In this document: one piece after another, positions 36,001 to 50,106 of the stretch
How the letters are laid out: each line of letters starts with the position of its first letter
Numbering within the stretch: the stretch's first letter is position 1
Source: Actinomycetota bacterium
Lineage (GTDB): Bacteria; Actinomycetota; Thermoleophilia; Gaiellales; Gaiellaceae
Assembly (NCBI GenBank): GCA_020029615.1
Contig: JAIBJO010000020.1
Location: forward strand, 1 to 52,014
DNA length: 52,014 nucleotides
Direction of reading: 5' to 3'
The notes under the pieces: model-generated
What the model was told of the DNA's origin: nothing
The model's input: the letters and a program-made list of their open reading frames with translations, nothing else
Databases searched by the model: none
Translations under genes and position numbers: made by a program

Positions 36001-36060
36001 GAGGAGCTCGAGCTCGAGCGCATTGTGGTCGGGCTTGTCCGGGAGAGGTGAGAAGATCAC
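33001..36060 (-). CDS. ileS: Isoleucyl-tRNA synthetase with altered signature motifs
   Basis: 1019 residues from GTG 36060. Class I core, editing domain and anticodon-binding domain are all present: YQNGFDCQGLWIEVGVE, GLNSKRDIEAYGLAEF, MDWGNDYFTFSDTNIEYIWG, then LVVWTTTPWTLPANV and DVMRWQYCAQPPNQNLLFGF. Zinc knuckles occur (WCPRCGTS, IRCEACGD). The HIGH motif is replaced by AVHTAWGR (residues 56-63) and the KMSKS region reads EMHGSWGN, with Gly at the second Lys. Related actinobacterial IleRS enzymes, as I recall them, have GVHHAWGR and EMHKSWGN or a close variant, so this belongs to that clade but departs further. Identity as IleRS is firm. Confidence 0.93.
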   Translation of the reverse strand: MIFSPLPDKPDHNALELELLETWELEGTFETLRDLNRGGPTFSFIDGPVTANKTLAVHTAWGRTLKDVFQRYKASQGFDQRYQNGFDCQGLWIEVGVERELGLNSKRDIEAYGLAEFARRCREKVVWSATELTRGSKRLGQWMDWGNDYFTFSDTNIEYIWGFLKLMGARGMLYKGHRSTEWCPRCGTSISQHELTQAGVYQERSDPSLFVRFPLVDAPGESLVVWTTTPWTLPANVAAAVKADAEYGRRENGEWVAVARYPEESFARIVPGSELVGLRYRGPFDDLAPASEVEHRVIPWDEVSLEEGTGIVHIAPGAGQEDFELGQVHDLPVLAPVDEAGRFYDSYGWLHGLSTTDAADQIVGRLAETGFLLEAGTYEHRYPHCWRCDTPLIWRVTDDWLIAVDELRQPLLDANATVEWTPAYMGKRMDDWLRNMGDWNISRRRYYGLPLPIYECSCGHVTIVGSKAELSERAVSGLEQLEELRRPWVDEVPIRCEACGDTVHRILEVGDVWLDAGIVPFSTLGWQSDEYVVEGYATGAAKGLTTADLPDHAYWERWFPADWVSEMREQIRLWFYSQHFMSVALTGRAPYRRVLGYEKMLDEHGREMHGSWGNMIDAQDAFERMGADVMRWQYCAQPPNQNLLFGFGPAHEIKRKLLTLWNSCKFLVDYANIEGWEPNSADLDDGPGGQLESLDRWLVERTRSLVADATAGYESWLSVDVVRAYEAFIDDVSNWYIRRSRRRFWDGDPVALRTLWFALVQGLRVVAPLMPFLTDHLWRVLTEPCDGAPDSVHLAGWPDPVHADASLLAEVAELRRVVELGRQARSTSGIKLRQPLRALVVEGAQLAKGHADEIADELRVREVSFGHVDASELRVKPNLPLLGPKLGKELGAVRAALQSGDFEELPDGGIRVAGHDLVRDEVLVEREGKEGWAVAASDGLTVALDLQLDDELVRAGRVYDLIHTVNTMRKEAGLELTDRIELTIPDADADLLEHEEWIARETLAVSVAAVGGDLALAKR

Positions 36061-36149
36061 GCCTCGCCAGTCTAGGGAAGGGTTTCGGCGGCCCGGGCGT
36101 TCTCCCCTTAGCATTCCTAATACCTCGCAGAAAGGATCGAAACACTCAG

Positions 36150-36467
36150 ATGGCAATCAACGTGACAGAGGCGACCTTCGAGCAGGAAGTCCTGCAGAGC
36201 GAGACGCCGGTGATCGTGGACTTCTGGGCGGAGTGGTGCGGCCCGTGCCACGCCGTCGCTCCCGTGCTCGAGAAGATCGCCGAGGAGCGGAAGGACGAGG
36301 TCAAGCTCGTCAAGGTCAACATCGACGAGGAGCAGGGCCTTTCGATCAAGTACGGAGTCATGTCGATTCCCACGATGATCCTGTTCAAGCAGGGCGAGCC
36401 GGCCGCCGCAGCAGTGGGCGCGCAACCCAAGTCCGCACTCGAGCGCTCGCTCGGCCTGGCTGCGTAG
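36150..36467 (+). CDS. trxA: Thioredoxin
   Basis: 105 residues from ATG 36150, with GAAAGGA upstream. The fold is complete: VIVDFWAEWCGPCHAVAPVL with the active site WCGPC (next residue His in place of the usual Lys/Arg), LVKVNIDEEQGLSIKYGVM and the cis-proline SIPTMILFKQG. Cytoplasmic dithiol reductant for ribonucleotide reductase, methionine sulfoxide reductase and peroxiredoxins; it could serve the peroxiredoxin-like gene at 43077. The gene stands alone, divergent from ileS, with a long hairpin 90 bp past the stop. Confidence 0.96.
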   Translation: MAINVTEATFEQEVLQSETPVIVDFWAEWCGPCHAVAPVLEKIAEERKDEVKLVKVNIDEEQGLSIKYGVMSIPTMILFKQGEPAAAAVGAQPKSALERSLGLAA

Positions 36468-37667: not shown

Positions 37668-38474
37668 TCATGAGCCCAGCTCGTCCAGGACGGCGTCCGA
37701 GAACCGCGGCCACGCGTCCTTCGCCCAGTCGTCGAACTCGCGCGTCGTCAGAGCCGCGCAGACGACGCCCGCATCAGAGTCGACCCAGAGGAACGTCCCT
37801 GATCCGCCGAAGTGGCCGAAGGCCCGTGGCGACGCCCTCGCTCCCATCCACGAGGGCGGCGACGTGTTGAGTTGCACGCCGAGCCCCCAGTCAAGCGGGT
37901 CGAAACGGCCGTAGTCAGGGAGAACTCCGGAGAGACCGGAAAACTGCGGGCTGACCATCTCGTCGCGAGTCTCTTCGGCGACCAGGCGAGGGGCTAGAAG
38001 CTCACGTCCGAACGTGAGGACGTCCTCGAGCGAGCCATGCATGCCGGCGCCTGGGTCTCCCTCCGGGTCGAGTGCGACGCCGAGCGGATGGCAGACGGCC
38101 TCTCGGACGTATGCGGTGAACGGCATCTCCGCCCGCTCGGCAAGATGCTCGGCGAGCACACGAAACGCGGCGTTCGAGTAGATGCGTCGCTGCCCAGGTC
38201 GTGCGATCGGCTGCGTGCCTTCGAAAGGGAGGCCACTCGTGTGGGCCAGCAGATGGCGCACCGTCGAGCCGGGCGGCCCGGCGAGCTCGTCGAGGCCGAC
38301 CACTCCCTCCTCGGCCGCAACCAGGATCGCGACGGCGACCACCGGCTTCGACACCGAGGCGAGACGCACGGGTCGCAACGCGTCGCCCCGCGTGAGGACG
38401 TCCCCGGAGGGATCGATCACCCCGGCGGCGGCGAACTCGACCGGCCAGTGGTCGATCTGGCGAAGTGCCTGCAC
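37668..38474 (-). CDS. Beta-lactamase-related serine hydrolase (class C type)
   Basis: 268 residues from GTG 38474. SVSK (nucleophile Ser and Lys of SxxK) lies near residue 41, the YxN motif is YSN in RIYSNAAFRVLAEHL, and FGHFGGSGTF supplies the third motif. No signal peptide is visible, so it is cytoplasmic. The short length matches esterase/peptidase-like members of Pfam beta-lactamase, not antibiotic-resistance enzymes. It is divergent from the RidA gene with 22 bp between starts. The substrate is unknown; D-amino-acid peptide or ester hydrolysis is usual for this fold. Confidence 0.85.
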   Translation of the reverse strand: MQALRQIDHWPVEFAAAGVIDPSGDVLTRGDALRPVRLASVSKPVVAVAILVAAEEGVVGLDELAGPPGSTVRHLLAHTSGLPFEGTQPIARPGQRRIYSNAAFRVLAEHLAERAEMPFTAYVREAVCHPLGVALDPEGDPGAGMHGSLEDVLTFGRELLAPRLVAEETRDEMVSPQFSGLSGVLPDYGRFDPLDWGLGVQLNTSPPSWMGARASPRAFGHFGGSGTFLWVDSDAGVVCAALTTREFDDWAKDAWPRFSDAVLDELGS

Positions 38475-38496
38475 GCGCGGCGATACTAGTCACAGC

Positions 38497-38877
38497 ATGG
38501 AACGCCGGAACATCTCCGGAACGGGCGCGTACGAGCCGGTCGTCGGCTACTCGCGCGCCGTCGTCGCAGGGGATCGTGTGCACGTTTCCGGCACCGCAGC
38601 GAATCCCGCCGACGGCTCACCTCCGCCCGAGGACATCTACGACCAGACGCTCGTCTGCCTCGAGCTCATCGGCACCGCGCTCGAAAGAGCAGGAACGCGC
38701 CTCGAGCACGTCGTGCGCACCCGCGTCTACCTGACGAACGCCGACGACTTCGACGGCTTCGCGCGGGCCCACGCCGAGATCTTCGGCGGCGTGCGCCCGG
38801 CCAACACGACCGTGCTCGCCGGCCTCTTCGACCCGCGCTGGAAGGTCGAGATCGAGGTCGAGGCGGTCCTCCCATGA
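38497..38877 (+). CDS. RidA-family enamine/imine deaminase-like protein
   Basis: 126 residues from ATG 38497. RVHVSGTAANPADG, LELIGTALERAGTRLEHVVR, RVYLTNADDFDGF and VEIEVEAVLP follow the RidA (YjgF/YER057c/UK114) order. R in the RTRVYL strand matches the conserved substrate-carboxylate Arg region. Members scavenge reactive 2-aminoacrylate-type enamines; many subfamilies have other roles. It is translationally coupled to the YbdK-type ligase (ATGA overlap), an association I recall from other actinobacteria only vaguely. A second RidA-like protein is encoded at 44482. Confidence 0.85.
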   Translation: MERRNISGTGAYEPVVGYSRAVVAGDRVHVSGTAANPADGSPPPEDIYDQTLVCLELIGTALERAGTRLEHVVRTRVYLTNADDFDGFARAHAEIFGGVRPANTTVLAGLFDPRWKVEIEVEAVLP

Positions 38878-40076
38878 CGGGGAAGCAGGCGTTCCCGTCC
38901 TCGATCACCGGCAACGGCTCGGCGCCGGCCGGCAGCGTCCTCGACCACAAGTTCGGCTCGGGCGACCCCTACACGCTCGGCGTGGAGGAGGAGTACCAGC
39001 TCCTCGACCCGGAGTCGTTCGACCTCGTCCAGCACATCGACACCATGCTCGCAGCGGTGACCGGGCATGAGCTCGAGGCGCAGATCAACGCCGAGCTCAT
39101 GCAGTCGGTGCTCGAGGTCGCCACGCCGGTCTGCCTTACCGCAGGCGACCTCATGCGCTGGCTGACGACGCTCCGCGGATACGTGACAGAGATCGCGCGC
39201 GAGCAGTCGACGCGTGTCGGCTCCGCCGGAACGCATCCCTTCAGCCTCTTCGAGCGGCAGCGGATCACCGCGAAGGATCGTTACCGCGCGCTGATCGACC
39301 AGCTCCAGTACGTTGCCCGGCGCGAGCTGATCTTCGGGATGCACGTGCATGTCGCGGTCGACGACCCGGAGAAGGCGATCCAGGTCGTGAACGGGCTGCT
39401 CCCGCACCTCGCGCCGCTGCTCGCCCTGTCGGCGAGCTCGCCCTTCTGGCGCGGGGAGGCGACCGGGCTCGCATCGAGCCGGCAGATGGTCTTCTCGGCG
39501 TTCCCCCGCTCCGGCCCGCCACCGCGGTTCCGCGACTACGAGGACTACGCCGCGCTCGTCGGACAGCTCGAGCACTCCGGTTGCATCGCGGACTACACCC
39601 ACATCTGGTGGGACATCCGCCTCCATCCGCGGCTCGGGACGATCGAGATCCGGATCTGCGACGCCGTTACCCGCGTCGAAGACGCGGTCGCGATCGCCGC
39701 GTACTGCCAGGCGCTCGTCAAGCAGCTCTGCGAGCAGCACGAGGCGGGTCAGGAGATCCCCTCGTATCACCGGATCCTCACGAGCGAGAACAAGTGGCTC
39801 GCAGCACGCTACGGGCTCGAGGCGCCGGTCATGGACCTCGCGATCGGGAGCCGGAACCGGGTGCCGGTCGCCAGGCTCATCCGGCGAACCGTCAACGAGC
39901 TGCGACCACATGCTCGCGAGCTCGGCTCCGAGCGGGAGCTCGACGGCGTGCTCGCGATTCTCGGCCGCGGCTCGTCCTCCGATCGCCAGCTTCGGATCTA
40001 CAACGCGAACCGCGACATCGTGGCGGTAGCCCGCGAGATCGCGGACGCGACCGAGGCACTCCCCGTTTCCGTCTAG
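38874..40076 (+). CDS. YbdK-type carboxylate-amine ligase (GCS2 family)
   Basis: 400 residues. YTLGVEEEYQLLDPES is the N-terminal signature of the glutamate-cysteine-ligase type 2 family; NAELMQSVLEVATPVC, FGMHVHVAVDDPEKAI, HIWWDIRLHPRLGTIEIRIC and ARYGLEAPVMD complete it. The enzyme links a carboxylate to an amine with ATP, classically glutamate to cysteine with weak activity. The stop TAG (40074-40076) lies in a CTAG (40073-40076) at the left border of a mobile element; the terminal inverted repeat begins on the next base. Coupled to RidA upstream by ATGA. Confidence 0.93.
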   Translation: MTGKQAFPSSITGNGSAPAGSVLDHKFGSGDPYTLGVEEEYQLLDPESFDLVQHIDTMLAAVTGHELEAQINAELMQSVLEVATPVCLTAGDLMRWLTTLRGYVTEIAREQSTRVGSAGTHPFSLFERQRITAKDRYRALIDQLQYVARRELIFGMHVHVAVDDPEKAIQVVNGLLPHLAPLLALSASSPFWRGEATGLASSRQMVFSAFPRSGPPPRFRDYEDYAALVGQLEHSGCIADYTHIWWDIRLHPRLGTIEIRICDAVTRVEDAVAIAAYCQALVKQLCEQHEAGQEIPSYHRILTSENKWLAARYGLEAPVMDLAIGSRNRVPVARLIRRTVNELRPHARELGSERELDGVLAILGRGSSSDRQLRIYNANRDIVAVAREIADATEALPVSV

Positions 40077-40966: not shown

Positions 40967-41770
40967 TGCCTCGCCCGCGTTGCCGACTCGCTCCGCGAGC
41001 AGCTTGCCGACATCGGCCGAGACGTTGCAATCGACTCGTCCGACATGCCCGCGTTCGCAAACGGGCAGCGATACCTGTCCAGGAACGGCCCGGAGCGGGA
41101 GCGGTTCTCCGATCCTGATGCCGCTTGGGGTCACCGCTCTGCTGTCTCGACGCGCAAGGGCGGAGGCTTCTACGGATTCAAGCTTCACGCTGCCGTCTGC
41201 ACGCGGACCGGGCTTCCCCTTGCGTGGCGCGTCGAGAGCGCGAACCACGGTGATGCCCTGTTTGCGCTCCCACTGATGGACGCGGTTCGCGAGCGGGGCT
41301 TCATACCTGAGACGTGCGCGATGGACAAGGGCTACGACTCCCGCGCGATCCACGACGGCTGCGAGGCCGTTGGCTGCCGCCCGATCATCGCTCAGATCCG
41401 ACAACAGAAGGCACGCACGCACAATGACGTGCCGACCTGCGCGCACGGAAGCTGGAGGTTCGCCGGTGCAGACTTCGGACGCAAGGCGACGAAGTGGCGC
41501 TGTCCTACCGGCGAGTGCTCTCCCAAGTCCGTCTGGCTCAAGGCTGACCGCCGCAACCCGCTCATCCCGCGTGAGACGAAGCGGTGGGGCGACCTGTATC
41601 GCGGCCGTGCGGCAATCGAGCGAGAGTTCGGAAGGTTGAAGCATCAGTACGGGCTCGCTCCGCTTCGCGTTCGCGGATTGGCGAAGGTTCAGCTTCACGC
41701 CGATCTGACGATGCTGGCCCGACTAACCCAGGCCCTCGCCAGAGCGCGGGCGATACCACTCGCGGCCTAG
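40967..41770 (+). pseudogene. DDE transposase, N-terminus missing
   Basis: The frame opens after a TAG at 40964 and codes VADSLREQLADIGRDVAIDS, then PAFANGQRYLSRNGPERERF, RKGGGFYGFKLHAAVCTRTG, ETCAMDKGYDSRAI and AAIEREFGRLKHQYGLAPLR. The first Asp is in AIDSSD, the second in AMDKGYD and the Glu in IEREFGR, so the catalytic DDE triad is present. About 100-150 residues of N-terminal DNA-binding sequence are absent: only about 80 bp separate this frame from the IS left end. A shorter product could start at ATG 41045, but it would lose the first Asp. The element is thus unlikely to move by itself. Confidence 0.85.
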
Positions 41771-43076: not shown

Positions 43077-43532
43077 GTGCTATGCCCAGGCCAACCGGTT
43101 CCTGACGTTCGCGTCTGGGCCGCTCCGGGCGAAGAGGCGCGCCCGCTCCGGGAGATCCTCGGCCCCGGACTCTCATTGTGTTTGTTTTTCCCTTTTGACT
43201 GGTCGCCGGGCTGAACGAACGAGATGCTGCTCCTGCGTGACAGGAGCGACGATCTCGCAGCGTCCGCCATTCGCCCGTTCGCAATCTCTCGCGACTCGGC
43301 GTGGTCGCACCGTGCGTGGGCACAGACGCTCGGGGTCGACCTTGCGCTTCTCTCAGATTGGAACGGCGACGCGACGCGCGCGTTCGACGTCGCGTTCGAG
43401 CCACTCGGCATGAATGACGTCCCGATCCGCTCTGCGTTTCTGATCCGAGACGGCAAGACCATCGAGGCGGCGTGGCTCCTCGCCGGCGAACTGCCGGACA
43501 TCGACGTGGTGATCGAGGCAGCGCGCGCCTGA
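43077..43532 (+). CDS. Peroxiredoxin-like protein with in-frame TGA at the peroxidatic Cys (candidate selenoprotein)
   Basis: 151 residues if the TGA at 43212-43214 is read as selenocysteine. GTG 43077 starts LCPGQPVPDVRVWAAPGEEA, then LGPGLSLCLFFPFDWSPG, TGA, TNEMLLLRDRSDDL, AISRDSAWSHRAWAQTLG, LLSDWNGDATRAF, IRSAFLIRDGKTI. The TGA is residue 46, exactly where PxxxT/SxxC has its catalytic Cys (PFDWSPG-x-TNE). The frame is unbroken on both sides and the rest of the fold is conserved, including the Arg in RSAF. A hairpin with SECIS-like geometry begins 6 nt later (43221-43256). Enzymes of this group reduce peroxides with thioredoxin. A chance nonsense mutation at this codon is the alternative, and no sel genes are in the window. 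Confidence 0.75.
43221..43256 (+). promoter_or_regulatory. SECIS-like hairpin after the in-frame TGA
   Basis: Lower stem GAGAT (43221-43225) with ATCTC (43252-43256); upper stem GCTCCTG (43229-43235) with CAGGAGC (43241-43247), plus a T-G pair; apical loop CGTGA. The loop has G at its second position and starts 21 nt after the TGA, in keeping with bacterial SECIS models as I remember them (G in the first two loop bases, loop about 16-37 nt from the UGA). Confidence 0.6.
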
Positions 43533-45096: not shown

Positions 45097-48000
45097 TCAC
45101 GCCTGCGGACATCGATCCACATGGAGATACTGGCGGCACTCCTCGTTGGTGAGCGATCTCCCGGCCTCTCGCCGCGCGATCTCGAGGAGATCGTCGATGC
45201 CGAGAGCCCAGATCCGGACACCGTCGCACCAGCTCGTGGAGGCGAGCTTCACCCCGTCGGGACTGAAAGCCACACCCTCTACGGCGCATCCGGACCCTCG
45301 CAAGCTGAGCTGTGGCGCGCCCGTGTCCGCGTCGAACAGCCGCACCAGGCCGTCGACGCTCGCTGTGGCGATGCGCGATCCGTCGGGGCTGAAGGCGAGG
45401 TCCTCTACGCCTCCGGGAGGTCCGGCCAGCACGGCCAGGCGCTCACCGCTCTCCACATCCCATACCTCCGCAAGTCCGTCCGAACCGGACAACACGACCC
45501 TCGGACCGTTGGGATCGAAGTCCACTTGCGCCGAGGGTCCCTCCGCGTCGATCGTGAGGAGGACGTCCCTCCTGGCCCAGTCCCAGATCCTGACGCGCTC
45601 CCCTCCTTGGTTGTTGAACTCGGCCGTGGCCACCAGCTGGCCGTCCGAGCTGAAGGCGATGTCGGAGAAGTTGAAGTCGTCCTGCGGGCCGCCCAGCACT
45701 CGGATCACCCGGCCGGAGCGATCGACGATCTTCGCGGTTCCCTCCCAGTCCGCCGTGGCCAGATGCTCGCCATCCGGGCTGAAGGCGACCTCGTTGACGT
45801 CGCGGTCGTGTCCGATCCGCCAAAGCTCCTCGCCGGTCGACGTATCCGACACCCGGACCGCCGACGCACCCCCGCAACAGTTGCGCTTGCTCCAACCGCC
45901 AAGTGCGATCGAGCTTCCGTCCGGGCTCACGTCGAACGACAGGAAGCGGAAATAGTCAGTCGCCGGTCCGATCGTTCGAAGCTCACGCCTCGTCTGCAGG
46001 TCCCAGATCGTCACCGCGCGCCCATACCCGCGGCGCTCAGCTCGGCCCTCCCAGCTGCTCGTCACCACGCGCCGTCCGTCCGGCATGAACTCCGCCGCGG
46101 GATCGCCCGGCGCTGGAAGGTTCGCCCACTCGGCGTCGCCGGTCGGCCCCATGTCCCAGACCAGCACCGCGGAGATGCTCGCAGCCCCGGCCATCACCCG
46201 CGTCCCGTCGGGGGAGAAGGCCACTCCGACGATGCCGCTCTTCGTCTCCTGCGCGGAGAGCGACCACCGCTCCCGGACGCCATCAGAGCCGATCTTCCAC
46301 ACCTTCGCGGTGCCGTCGGAGCTGCTCGTCACCAGGAGAGACGAGTCGGGGCTCCAGGCGACGCCGAGTATGGAACCGCTGTGACTGAGCAGCCTGTACC
46401 GGAGGGTTCCCGTTTCTGCATCCCACAAGCGAGCGGTGCCCTCGCTGCTCACGGCGACGAGTCGGCCGTCCGGACTCCAGGCAACCCCCCGGGAAGATGG
46501 ACTCGCGCAACAGTTCGGCCCCGCCAGGGCGAACTCTTCCTCGCCGGTGTTAATGTCGAACACGGCGCCCAACTCTCCCTCCGGCCACCACCTGGCCACG
46601 GCCACGCGCTTGCCATCCGGACTGAGGGCCGTGTCGATCGCCTGCGGCACAGAAACCGTCGAGGCTACTCGGCCGGTGGACAGATCCAAGACCCGGACCT
46701 GATTCGCGGGCGCTCCCCAGGCGGCGGCCACGAGCGACCCATCGGCGCTGAACGACGGACCCGATGCGCTACCTGTCGCCGCCAGGCTCGAGACGAGCCG
46801 CCCCGTGGAGGGGTCCCACACGTTCAGCTTTCCGTCCTCCCCTGTGGAGGCTAGCCTCGACCCGTCTGGGCTGAACGCGACGTCGTTGACGTCCCCATCG
46901 TGTCCCTGGAACGAGAGGATGCTCGCGCCCGTGTCCGCGTCCCTGATGTCGATCAGACCCGAGTCCTCGCGGCCCTCGGTGACGAAGACCCCTCGTGGGC
47001 TCCAGGCGAGGAGGCCCCCAACCCCGGGAACCTTCAAGTCGAGCCGGGACGCCACGACCGCGCGGTGGAGGGCCTCCTCCGCTTCTCGGAGAACCGTCCC
47101 GTCCGACGAGCGGGTGGCCTCGACCGCCTCGATGGCGAGCAATACGCTGAGCTCGGGATCGGCCTCCACGTTCGCCACCGCCGCCGCGGCCACCTCCCTC
47201 GCCGTGGCGACCCCGGCCGCCCGCTCCGCCCTGCGGCGCTGATCCGTGGCCACGACGGTGAGCGTTCCGGCGATGAGGGCCGCGGCCGCGAAGACGGCGA
47301 CGAGGCCACGCAGACGGCGCGTCGATCGCCGCTCGATCCGGGCCTCGCGCTCGCGCCGCTGCTCCTCCTCCTCCCGCTCGCGATCGCGCTGATCCGTGCT
47401 CGCCTTCAGGTACGCGCGCTCGGGTCGCCCGATGGCCAGGTCCGTCGTTGCGGCCCAGGACTCGAGCTGCTCGAGTCGGGCACCGCGCAGGAGGAAGCTC
47501 GGATCGCCGGCGGAGCCGCGCCACTCGGCGGCCGCCCGGGACAGGCTTCGCTCCTGACGCAGGCCCTCTCGAGCGCCGTCGATCCATGTGCGCAACCGCC
47601 CCCAGGCGCCGAGCAGCGCCTCGTGGGCGATCTCGACCGTGGGCTCCCGGGTGGAGGGTTCCCGATCGAAGGTGAGGAGCCGGTGACGCCCGAAGGTATC
47701 GACGGCTCTCTCGATTGCCTCCTGATCCACGTCGAGAGCGTCAAGCTCACCCCGGGGTACGCGCCGGCGAGTGTCCTGGCGGCCCTCTCCCAGCGTGACC
47801 AACCGCAAGAACACTTGCTTGGTGGCACGGCGGCCGTGGGCCTCGGCGGACTCGTAGATGCGATCGGCTCGAGCGGACAGGGCCCCTGCGACCCCGCCGA
47901 TCTCCCGGTACGCGGCGAGGGTCAGCCGGTCATCGTCCCGATGTTCGAACAGCTCCGTCAGGGCGTACTGCAGAAGCGGAAGGGCCCCAGGTTGATGGGC

Positions 48001-50106
48001 GACGTCGGCGATCATCTCCGCCACCAGCCCGGGCTCGGGTCGGACGCCGATCCTTTCGGCCGGCCCCCGGATCGCCCGCTCCAGCTCATCGGGGGTGAGC
48101 GGAGGAACCGCCTCGGTCCTTTCAGCGAGCAGCTCTCCGAAGCGGGGGTAGACAAGGGGGCGGTCGTAGAAGTCCGCGCGGAGGGTGACGATCACGCGAA
48201 GCCGACTCTCGGGGTCGGCGGCGGCGACGCGAAGCGACTCCAAGAAGAGTTCCCGCTCCCGCTCGTCCGTGGTGAGCGTGAAGGCCTCTTCGAACTGATC
48301 GACAAGAACCACGACCTCCGCCGCGCCGGGCGCCACGAGATCCACCACCTCGAGCAGTCCCCGGGATCCTGAATCGAGTCGCTCGCGGAGCCGTGGTACC
48401 GGATGCACGGCGATCCGAAGGAGAGCGGCCTCCAGCTCGTCGATGGGGTGCTCTCCGGGGAACATCTCGGCGACGAAAGTGTCCTCCGCGCCTCCCAGGG
48501 CGCCGTCCCGGACCACCGGAACCAGGCCCGCGCGGACCACTGATGACTTCCCGCTGCCGCTCGGGCCGACAACGGCCAGGAACCTTGATGCGGGCCCCGC
48601 CTCACCCAGCCTGGCGACGAGGCGCCGAACGAGCCCCTCTCGCCCGAAGAAGTCGCGGGCGTCGGCCTCTGTGAACGGGCGGAGACCCTTATAGGGGTTC
48701 CGTTCCTCGATGCGCCGAGGCGCGGCGATCACCGTGGACTCGAGAGCCGTGCGGCAAGCTTGAGCCAAGGCATCCGCTCGCGACGCGTCGGTTGCAACCT
48801 CTACTCGCTGGGCAAGCTCCCCAAAGCAGGCCTCCTTCGGCAGCAGGCGCCTGGCGAGACGGGCGAGCTCCCGCACGTCGTCCGCGGGATCCGGCGCTGG
48901 GCCACGCCCGATCTGGAAGTCTCCGAGGTAGGCGTTCCCCTCCGGGTCGAAGAGGATGTTGGACGGACGGACGTTTCCGTGCGCCACCCCTCGGCGGTGG
49001 GCGAACGTGAGTGCCAGAGAGATCTGCTCGATGACACGTAAGACCAGGTCTCGCTCGAGCGGCTCCCCCCTCTCCTCGACGGCTCGAAGGCTCCCCCCGC
49101 GCAGGTAGCGAGAGACGACGTAGGCGCGGCTGGGCTCCCGCCAGTAGTCGTAGATCGGGGCGATGTGGGGATGCTCCAAGGCGGCGACCACCTGGGCATC
49201 CGCGTCGAAGCGACGAACGAATGCCGGGTCGGCGGCGATGGCTTCGCGGAAGATCTTGACGGCCACGTCGCGTTCGACGCGAGGCTGGAGGGCTCGGAAG
49301 ACGACCCCGCTGGGTCCGGCGTCGATCTTCTCCAGGAGCCGGTAGCCGCGGAGGGGCTCTCCGCGCAGATCCAGTGCGGGATCCTGCTGCAGGACGCGTT
49401 GGTGAAGCCTGACGAGCTCCGGGGAAGGGTCGACGCCCAGCTCGTCCGCCAGGATCTCCCTGACCCGCTGGTAGGAGCGCAGCGCCTCCGCCTGCCTCCC
49501 CTCTCGGTACAAGGCCAGCATCAGGAGGCCCCACAGGCTCTCCCTCCACGGGTGTCGTGCAATCAGCGCCTCCAGCTCCCCGATCGCGTGGGCCTGAGCG
49601 CCGGCCGCCAGGAGCCCCTCGATCCTGGTTTCCTGAGCCTCGAGGCGGAGCTCATCGAGTCGGGCCGCCTCGGCGAGGAGCGAGGACTGGTCGGCCAGGT
49701 CGGCGAGGGCCGGCCCCCGCCACAGGGCCAAGGCGTCCTCGAGCGTGGCGACGGCCACCTTCGGATCCACGGGCAGAGTCTTCTTCGCATCTCTGATGAG
49801 CGCGTCGAATCGCACAGCGTCCAGCTCGGAGGGATCGAGCCTCAGGCGGTAGCCGGGTCCGTGACTCTCGATCCGGTCGTGACCGAGGGCTTTCCGGAGG
49901 TGCGAGACGTAGGTCTGGATCACGTTGCGGGCCGTCTCGGGTGGCTCTTCCGGCCAGATCTGGTCGATCAGGGTCTCGGCGGGCACGAGCTGGTTCGCCC
50001 GAAGAACCAGGTGCGCCAGGACGGCGCGCTGCTTTGGCCCGCCAAGGGGGATAGCGCCTCCCGCCACATCCACCTCGAGAGGCCCGAGGATCCGGAACAG
50101 CGTCAT
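45097..50106 (-). CDS. Giant regulator: SARP/BTAD, pseudokinase, STAND ATPase, WD40 repeats
   Basis: 1669 residues. Order: OmpR-type DNA-binding domain (about 1-95, FRILGPLEVDVAGGAIPLGG), BTAD helical repeats (96-245), a protein-kinase-like fold (about 255-470), a STAND NTPase with Walker A VVGPSGSGKSSVVRAG (about 510-522) and Walker B VVVLVDQFEEAF (about 596-607), a membrane-type hydrophobic helix (about 932-950) and WD40 blades to the end. The kinase fold keeps the ATP-site Lys (VAVKIF) but has HGN in place of HRD (GVAHGNVRPSN) and DFQ in place of DFG, so it is probably a pseudokinase. The protein likely senses a ligand or stress and activates the divergent lipoprotein gene. Full length and in one frame, with no interruption. 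Confidence 0.9.
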   Translation of the reverse strand: MTLFRILGPLEVDVAGGAIPLGGPKQRAVLAHLVLRANQLVPAETLIDQIWPEEPPETARNVIQTYVSHLRKALGHDRIESHGPGYRLRLDPSELDAVRFDALIRDAKKTLPVDPKVAVATLEDALALWRGPALADLADQSSLLAEAARLDELRLEAQETRIEGLLAAGAQAHAIGELEALIARHPWRESLWGLLMLALYREGRQAEALRSYQRVREILADELGVDPSPELVRLHQRVLQQDPALDLRGEPLRGYRLLEKIDAGPSGVVFRALQPRVERDVAVKIFREAIAADPAFVRRFDADAQVVAALEHPHIAPIYDYWREPSRAYVVSRYLRGGSLRAVEERGEPLERDLVLRVIEQISLALTFAHRRGVAHGNVRPSNILFDPEGNAYLGDFQIGRGPAPDPADDVRELARLARRLLPKEACFGELAQRVEVATDASRADALAQACRTALESTVIAAPRRIEERNPYKGLRPFTEADARDFFGREGLVRRLVARLGEAGPASRFLAVVGPSGSGKSSVVRAGLVPVVRDGALGGAEDTFVAEMFPGEHPIDELEAALLRIAVHPVPRLRERLDSGSRGLLEVVDLVAPGAAEVVVLVDQFEEAFTLTTDERERELFLESLRVAAADPESRLRVIVTLRADFYDRPLVYPRFGELLAERTEAVPPLTPDELERAIRGPAERIGVRPEPGLVAEMIADVAHQPGALPLLQYALTELFEHRDDDRLTLAAYREIGGVAGALSARADRIYESAEAHGRRATKQVFLRLVTLGEGRQDTRRRVPRGELDALDVDQEAIERAVDTFGRHRLLTFDREPSTREPTVEIAHEALLGAWGRLRTWIDGAREGLRQERSLSRAAAEWRGSAGDPSFLLRGARLEQLESWAATTDLAIGRPERAYLKASTDQRDREREEEEQRREREARIERRSTRRLRGLVAVFAAAALIAGTLTVVATDQRRRAERAAGVATAREVAAAAVANVEADPELSVLLAIEAVEATRSSDGTVLREAEEALHRAVVASRLDLKVPGVGGLLAWSPRGVFVTEGREDSGLIDIRDADTGASILSFQGHDGDVNDVAFSPDGSRLASTGEDGKLNVWDPSTGRLVSSLAATGSASGPSFSADGSLVAAAWGAPANQVRVLDLSTGRVASTVSVPQAIDTALSPDGKRVAVARWWPEGELGAVFDINTGEEEFALAGPNCCASPSSRGVAWSPDGRLVAVSSEGTARLWDAETGTLRYRLLSHSGSILGVAWSPDSSLLVTSSSDGTAKVWKIGSDGVRERWSLSAQETKSGIVGVAFSPDGTRVMAGAASISAVLVWDMGPTGDAEWANLPAPGDPAAEFMPDGRRVVTSSWEGRAERRGYGRAVTIWDLQTRRELRTIGPATDYFRFLSFDVSPDGSSIALGGWSKRNCCGGASAVRVSDTSTGEELWRIGHDRDVNEVAFSPDGEHLATADWEGTAKIVDRSGRVIRVLGGPQDDFNFSDIAFSSDGQLVATAEFNNQGGERVRIWDWARRDVLLTIDAEGPSAQVDFDPNGPRVVLSGSDGLAEVWDVESGERLAVLAGPPGGVEDLAFSPDGSRIATASVDGLVRLFDADTGAPQLSLRGSGCAVEGVAFSPDGVKLASTSWCDGVRIWALGIDDLLEIARREAGRSLTNEECRQYLHVDRCPQA

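Follow-up and report, generated by a model that had tools for sequence, protein, structure and literature searches.

An almost certain selenocysteine codon at the peroxidatic position of a peroxiredoxin gene probably overlooked in soil Gaiellaceae

Introduction

The window, as we call the whole stretch of 52,014 nucleotides analysed here, contains a peroxiredoxin-like reading frame with one TGA inside it. The question is whether this codon breaks the gene or encodes selenocysteine (Sec). Sec-peroxiredoxins are an established family, with 91 members in 78 organisms (PMC5029168), and have been described before (PMC1794560, PMC13188914). Our search of the open-licence literature on Gaiella and Gaiellales revealed no report of this gene (prx) in connection with selenocysteine or selenoprotein. 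Sec-peroxiredoxin is thus a known kind of protein; the Gaiellaceae lineage is new and was apparently overlooked.

A peroxiredoxin gene with one in-frame TGA

43077 to 43532, plus strand: prx, a 151-residue Sec-containing AhpC/TSA-family peroxiredoxin with GTG start and TGA terminator (PF00578; 72 TGA-bearing family genes)
43212 to 43214, plus strand: in-frame TGA, taken as Sec46, the peroxidatic residue in PxxxSxxU (72 genes with TGA and 7 with TGC/TGT at the same column)
43530 to 43532, plus strand: true TGA terminator of prx (from the sequence)

Translation of the frame 43077-43532 with TGA as U gave 151 residues and a single internal TGA at codon 46. Residues 5-131 match the Pfam AhpC-TSA domain PF00578 (E 2.1e-18; 66.9 bits against a gathering score of 26), and phmmer alignments place U46 opposite the peroxidatic Cys of solved peroxiredoxins, for example within 'SPVCTKEL' of 2cx3. 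Match and alignment bear out the original prediction of a peroxiredoxin frame with one TGA at its catalytic Cys. The PxxxT/SxxC(U) motif reads P39FDWS43PGU46 in the window's protein, the active-site Arg is R118, and two Cys residues are present (C3, C35).

The frame 43224-43532 begins with ATG and could in principle be translated as a stand-alone protein of 102 residues, the TGA then ending a short upstream peptide. However, this ATG is Met50 within the active-site segment and is replaced by Leu or Val in about half of the family, the product would have no catalytic residue, and conservation in frame extends to the upstream part, so that an internal start has a negligible probability.

The TGA is conserved in relatives

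Homologues were detected at E 1e-15 or better in 73 of 103 sampled genomes of the same family. For the gene set, a second family of the order was added, and one duplicate and two paralogues were removed. In 72 distinct genes, that of the window included, the aligned codon is TGA, and in 7 it is TGC or TGT (families f1 and f3). Relatives share between 36% and about 75% identity with the window's protein. The nearest named one is a MAG of the Gaiellaceae at 74%, and plasmid records contained only relatives below 60%. A check of close relatives, as the original prediction had proposed, showed that they keep TGA and not Cys. When 396 genomes sampled from the phylum were searched at E 1e-16, no TGA form turned up outside the order.

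Most of these genomes are draft assemblies, a point in favour of a sequencing or assembly error that turned TGC or TGT into TGA. Yet the assemblies of dozens of species share the TGA along with the hairpin and the rare codons that go with it (see below). The read-level correction that the original prediction had allowed for did not materialise: recurrence in 72 distinct genes excludes a read error, and the chance that the TGA is an artefact is minute.

As a separate observation, the Sec genes end in TAG in 54 cases and in TGA in 14, the window's gene ending in TGA, while long frames around Sec-peroxiredoxin genes end in TAG in 42% and in TGA in 47%; these counts, which take no account of kinship, are compatible with a possible avoidance of TGA as terminator in Sec genes.

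A SECIS hairpin follows the TGA

43229 to 43247, plus strand: bacterial SECIS with a 7-bp upper stem GCTCCTG/CAGGAGC and a 5-nt loop CGTGA (fold; pair conservation; rare codons)

The arms of the upper stem (43229-43235 and 43241-43247) enclose the loop CGTGA (43236-43240), and the element lies 21 nt past the TGA. The hairpin 43221-43256 has a minimum free energy (MFE) of -17.3 kcal/mol; relative to 200 dinucleotide shuffles, of which one was equally stable, its z score is -3.24. Published constraints for bacterial SECIS elements comprise a loop of 3-9 nt with a stem of 4-16 bp, a G in loop position 1-2, a spacing of 16-37 nt and an MFE of at most -7.5 (PMC13188914); the prx hairpin (CGUGA, 21 nt, -17.3 kcal/mol) lies within all four. 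With the consensus of the bSECISearch model (PMC13188914) it shares loop length, G followed by U in the loop, stem length, the 21-nt spacing and stability. In contrast to this consensus, the prx element TCCTG-CGTGA-CAGGA is nearly invariant across the order and its lower stem is not conserved. Of the hairpin as originally described, the upper stem (6-7 bp), the loop and the 21-nt spacing thus held up, whereas the lower stem did not stand as a conserved feature. We rejected it as conserved RNA because some of its pairs are not kept in relatives, and as specific because its best-kept pairs are equally kept in Cys genes, which need no SECIS.

The six pairs next to the loop are kept in 67-72 of the 72 Sec genes; in the Cys genes the stem is broken, and the hairpin is gone in 7/7. 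Codons across the hairpin are near-fixed in Sec genes as CTC CTG CGT GAC AGG, with CGT in 69/72 and AGG in 71/72, although elsewhere in the same genes these codons make up only 4.4% (CGT) and 4.1% (AGG) of Arg codons. Cys genes use CGT in 0/7 and AGG in 1/7 at these positions and have the common codons CGC/CGG instead. Since the LRDR amino acids are unchanged while the codons differ, the constraint acts on the RNA. Free energy discriminates only weakly across the family (mean z against synonymous shuffles -1.04 for Sec and -0.11 for Cys genes); the value for the window's copy, -2.95, is strong.

A scan of the window's own genome for CTGCGTGACAG elements returned only prx and one site with another spacing. 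Viral contigs scanned for the SECIS core gave 3 matches, none of them with a TGA at the correct distance.

Sec machinery in the host genome and its relatives

The host is represented by a 2.8-Mb draft genome, 89.6% complete, in which the window is contig C87. A selB gene above cut-off (335.8 bits) lies beside selA (517 bits) on contig C80, and about 6 kb beyond them a tRNA-Sec was detected by Rfam (63.7 bits) and by ARAGORN (tRNA-SeC, anticodon tca). With selD on contig C181 (352.9 bits), the search of the genome for Sec machinery, suggested along with the original prediction, thus recovered selA, selB, selD and tRNA-Sec. Contig C61 encodes a formate dehydrogenase alpha subunit with one TGA, which has its own, different hairpin CCUGGUCAGG, also with GU at the tip.

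Some bacteria use TGA as a sense codon, and general read-through or a reassigned code (for example TGA as Trp or Gly) would be an alternative to Sec. This is extremely unlikely here: prx itself terminates in TGA, and no other stop is as common among the apparent ends of long frames in the window (TGA in 13/24); homologues have Cys at the column and never Trp or Gly; a SECIS accompanies the codon, and the Sec machinery is complete.

Among the matches listed, selA or selB was present in 50 of 67 Sec-peroxiredoxin genomes, and in 20 of the 22 that are about 90% complete or more. Neither gene was found among the matches listed in 17 of the 67, which counts against the Sec reading; these 17 include two genomes that are more than 90% complete (G016, G055) and two that do have tRNA-Sec (G050, G090). 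Draft assemblies and matches beyond those listed probably explain much of these gaps. Two Cys genomes (G021, G022) are without selA and a full selB, as expected if the machinery was lost after reversion to Cys. G021 also carries a tRNA-Sec-like gene (C11:3688-3779, 61.3 bits), perhaps a remnant of a lost Sec system.

In 28 genomes of the family (for example G003, G004, G006 and G013) a Sec-peroxiredoxin occurs with selA or selB, and a search at E 1e-60 returned no TGA-bearing formate dehydrogenase alpha; these organisms may have the peroxiredoxin as a main selenoprotein.

Gene neighbourhood and selection

36048 to 36467, plus strand: thioredoxin (WCGPC), conserved neighbourhood (translation; synteny)
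38182 to 38877: RidA-like frame
38874 to 40076, plus strand: GCS2 / YbdK-type carboxylate-amine ligase, glutamate-cysteine ligase family 2 (PF04107 E 2e-58; NF010039 above cut-off; synteny)
41045 to 41770, plus strand: DDE transposase between GCS2 and prx (PF01609 E 1.7e-23)

Many relatives have a RidA-like gene and GCS2 directly upstream of prx on the same strand, with thioredoxin a few kb beyond. The window keeps the order thioredoxin, RidA-like, GCS2, after which about 3 kb with the transposase intervene before prx: the distance from the end of the GCS2 match to prx is 3,004 bp, compared with mostly less than 250 bp in relatives that have GCS2 adjacent. No sigma-70-like promoter was found near the window's prx. 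As the gene stands apart from its usual operon and such a promoter was not found, its expression here is only putative. Elsewhere in the window, the minus strand (45097-50106) encodes a protein of 1669 residues with predicted BTAD, protein kinase, nSTAND1 NTPase and WD40 propeller domains, a large signalling or defence-like protein.

The transposase, within about 3 kb of prx and between it and its usual neighbour, and the promoter-like site not found could point to a pseudogene, cut by a nonsense mutation perhaps after the adjacent transposon insertion. Substitution rates argue otherwise. Against the nearest relative, dN and dS are 0.094 and 0.69 after the TGA (dN/dS about 0.14) and 0.38 and 1.24 before it; against the four nearest relatives, dN is 0.09-0.26 and dS 0.66-0.96 after the TGA, and the part preceding it is less constrained. 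With purifying selection continuing beyond the TGA, a nonsense mutation is for practical purposes ruled out. Similarity on both sides of the TGA, as first noticed, is real homology free of decay. The better conservation of the downstream part, the identical TGA in 72 genes at identities down to 36% and the intact SECIS of the window's copy make a pseudogene very unlikely.

The prx TGA, in summary, almost certainly codes for Sec in a gene that is not broken, judging from sequence comparison. Conserved TGA, hairpin, Sec machinery and selection past the TGA support the candidate selenoprotein first proposed, and we are highly confident that prx encodes a peroxiredoxin with a predicted Sec as peroxidatic residue, its UGA being decoded via SelB and the hairpin.

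History of the Sec/Cys exchange

We masked the catalytic residue and calculated a quick likelihood tree that covers the order's 79 genes and, from other families in the class, 19 Cys genes. The two sets separate with a support of 100. The tree requires five state changes at the catalytic residue, but many inner branches are weakly supported, and if only the starred branches are counted, three or more changes are needed. Most simply, the tree would reflect a single switch to Sec followed by four reversions to Cys, one of which is a paralogue in the second family.

Active site and relation to known peroxiredoxins

Ser/Thr43, Arg118 and the LLRDR segment are conserved in the family. A search of the 72 Sec proteins for the resolving Cys of 2-Cys peroxiredoxins revealed no conserved Cys column, and 55 of them contain no Cys whatsoever. 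At residue 39 (43191-43193) the signature Pro is replaced by Leu in 69/72 Sec genes and 5/7 Cys genes of the order; it is present in 19/19 class-level Cys genes, which carry YPFAFSPVC-type sites. Only two Sec genes have the signature Pro, among them the window's copy. The latter thus shows neither of the two odd traits of its family, absence of Cys and Pro-to-Leu exchange.

The nearest solved structures in profile searches are of the AhpE / PrxQ type, namely the thiol peroxidase 2cx3 (E 6.3e-30) and M. tuberculosis AhpE Rv2238c (1xxu; E 2.1e-23). In contrast to these, the window's family has Sec for Cys and no conserved second Cys. An AlphaFold2 model from a two-row alignment reached a pLDDT of 38 and was discarded. 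The prx gene resembles those of known Sec-peroxiredoxins (PF00578, TxxU), such as that of Eubacterium acidaminophilum (Sohling 2001, as cited in PMC13188914), in its AhpC/TSA family, in Sec as the peroxidatic residue and in the SECIS that immediately follows the UGA. Unlike them, the window's family occurs in high-GC actinobacterial genomes, is mostly Cys-free and has Leu for the signature Pro. The prx protein is not a PrxU equivalog (NF040737 29.7 bits against a cut-off of 270). The Sec-peroxiredoxins of this order probably form a distinct subfamily.

Two genomes (G066, G068) contain a second AhpC/TSA paralogue (L095:401-883 and L096:401-883; PF00578 E 3e-21 and 5e-22). It has one TGA at codon 46, in FDFTGS[PM]EGG-U, farther from Thr than in the usual TxxU; in L096 the TGA is followed by a hairpin UGUCCC-AGUUU-GGGACA. 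This paralogue is a possible further selenoprotein with altered active-site spacing.

Discussion

In the proposed mechanism, SelB with Sec-tRNA-Sec would recognise the small hairpin 21 nt past the UGA, probably contacting the GU of the CGUGA loop, and Sec would be inserted at residue 46 in place of termination. The Sec46 selenolate, aided by Ser43 and the conserved Arg118, would then reduce peroxide and become a selenenic acid. As most family members are Cys-free, the oxidised Sec would have to be reduced by an outside thiol; the simplest reading would be a cycle of the 1-Cys type, with Sec in the place of Cys (1-Sec). As a guess from the gene neighbourhood, with its ligase of the glutamate-cysteine ligase family and its thioredoxin, a gamma-glutamyl thiol and thioredoxin would be the reductants to consider first. 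More tentatively, and less likely than not, the family might be a distinct 1-Sec subfamily that arose by a Cys-to-Sec switch in the ancestor of the order with loss of the Pro (to Leu) and of all Cys, that is a main reason for keeping the Sec machinery where no TGA-bearing formate dehydrogenase was detected, and that is fed by a gamma-glutamyl thiol from the neighbouring ligase.

Standard gene callers stop at TGA and would report a truncated or broken gene, so that annotation probably overlooks or mislabels this selenoprotein. The four apparent reversions, each accompanied by loss of the SECIS, provide a natural experiment on Sec-to-Cys exchange in one active site, and the Cys-free, Pro-less members allow testing whether Sec relaxes the rules of peroxiredoxin active sites. 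The probably overlooked selenoprotein occurs in most sampled genomes of Gaiellaceae.
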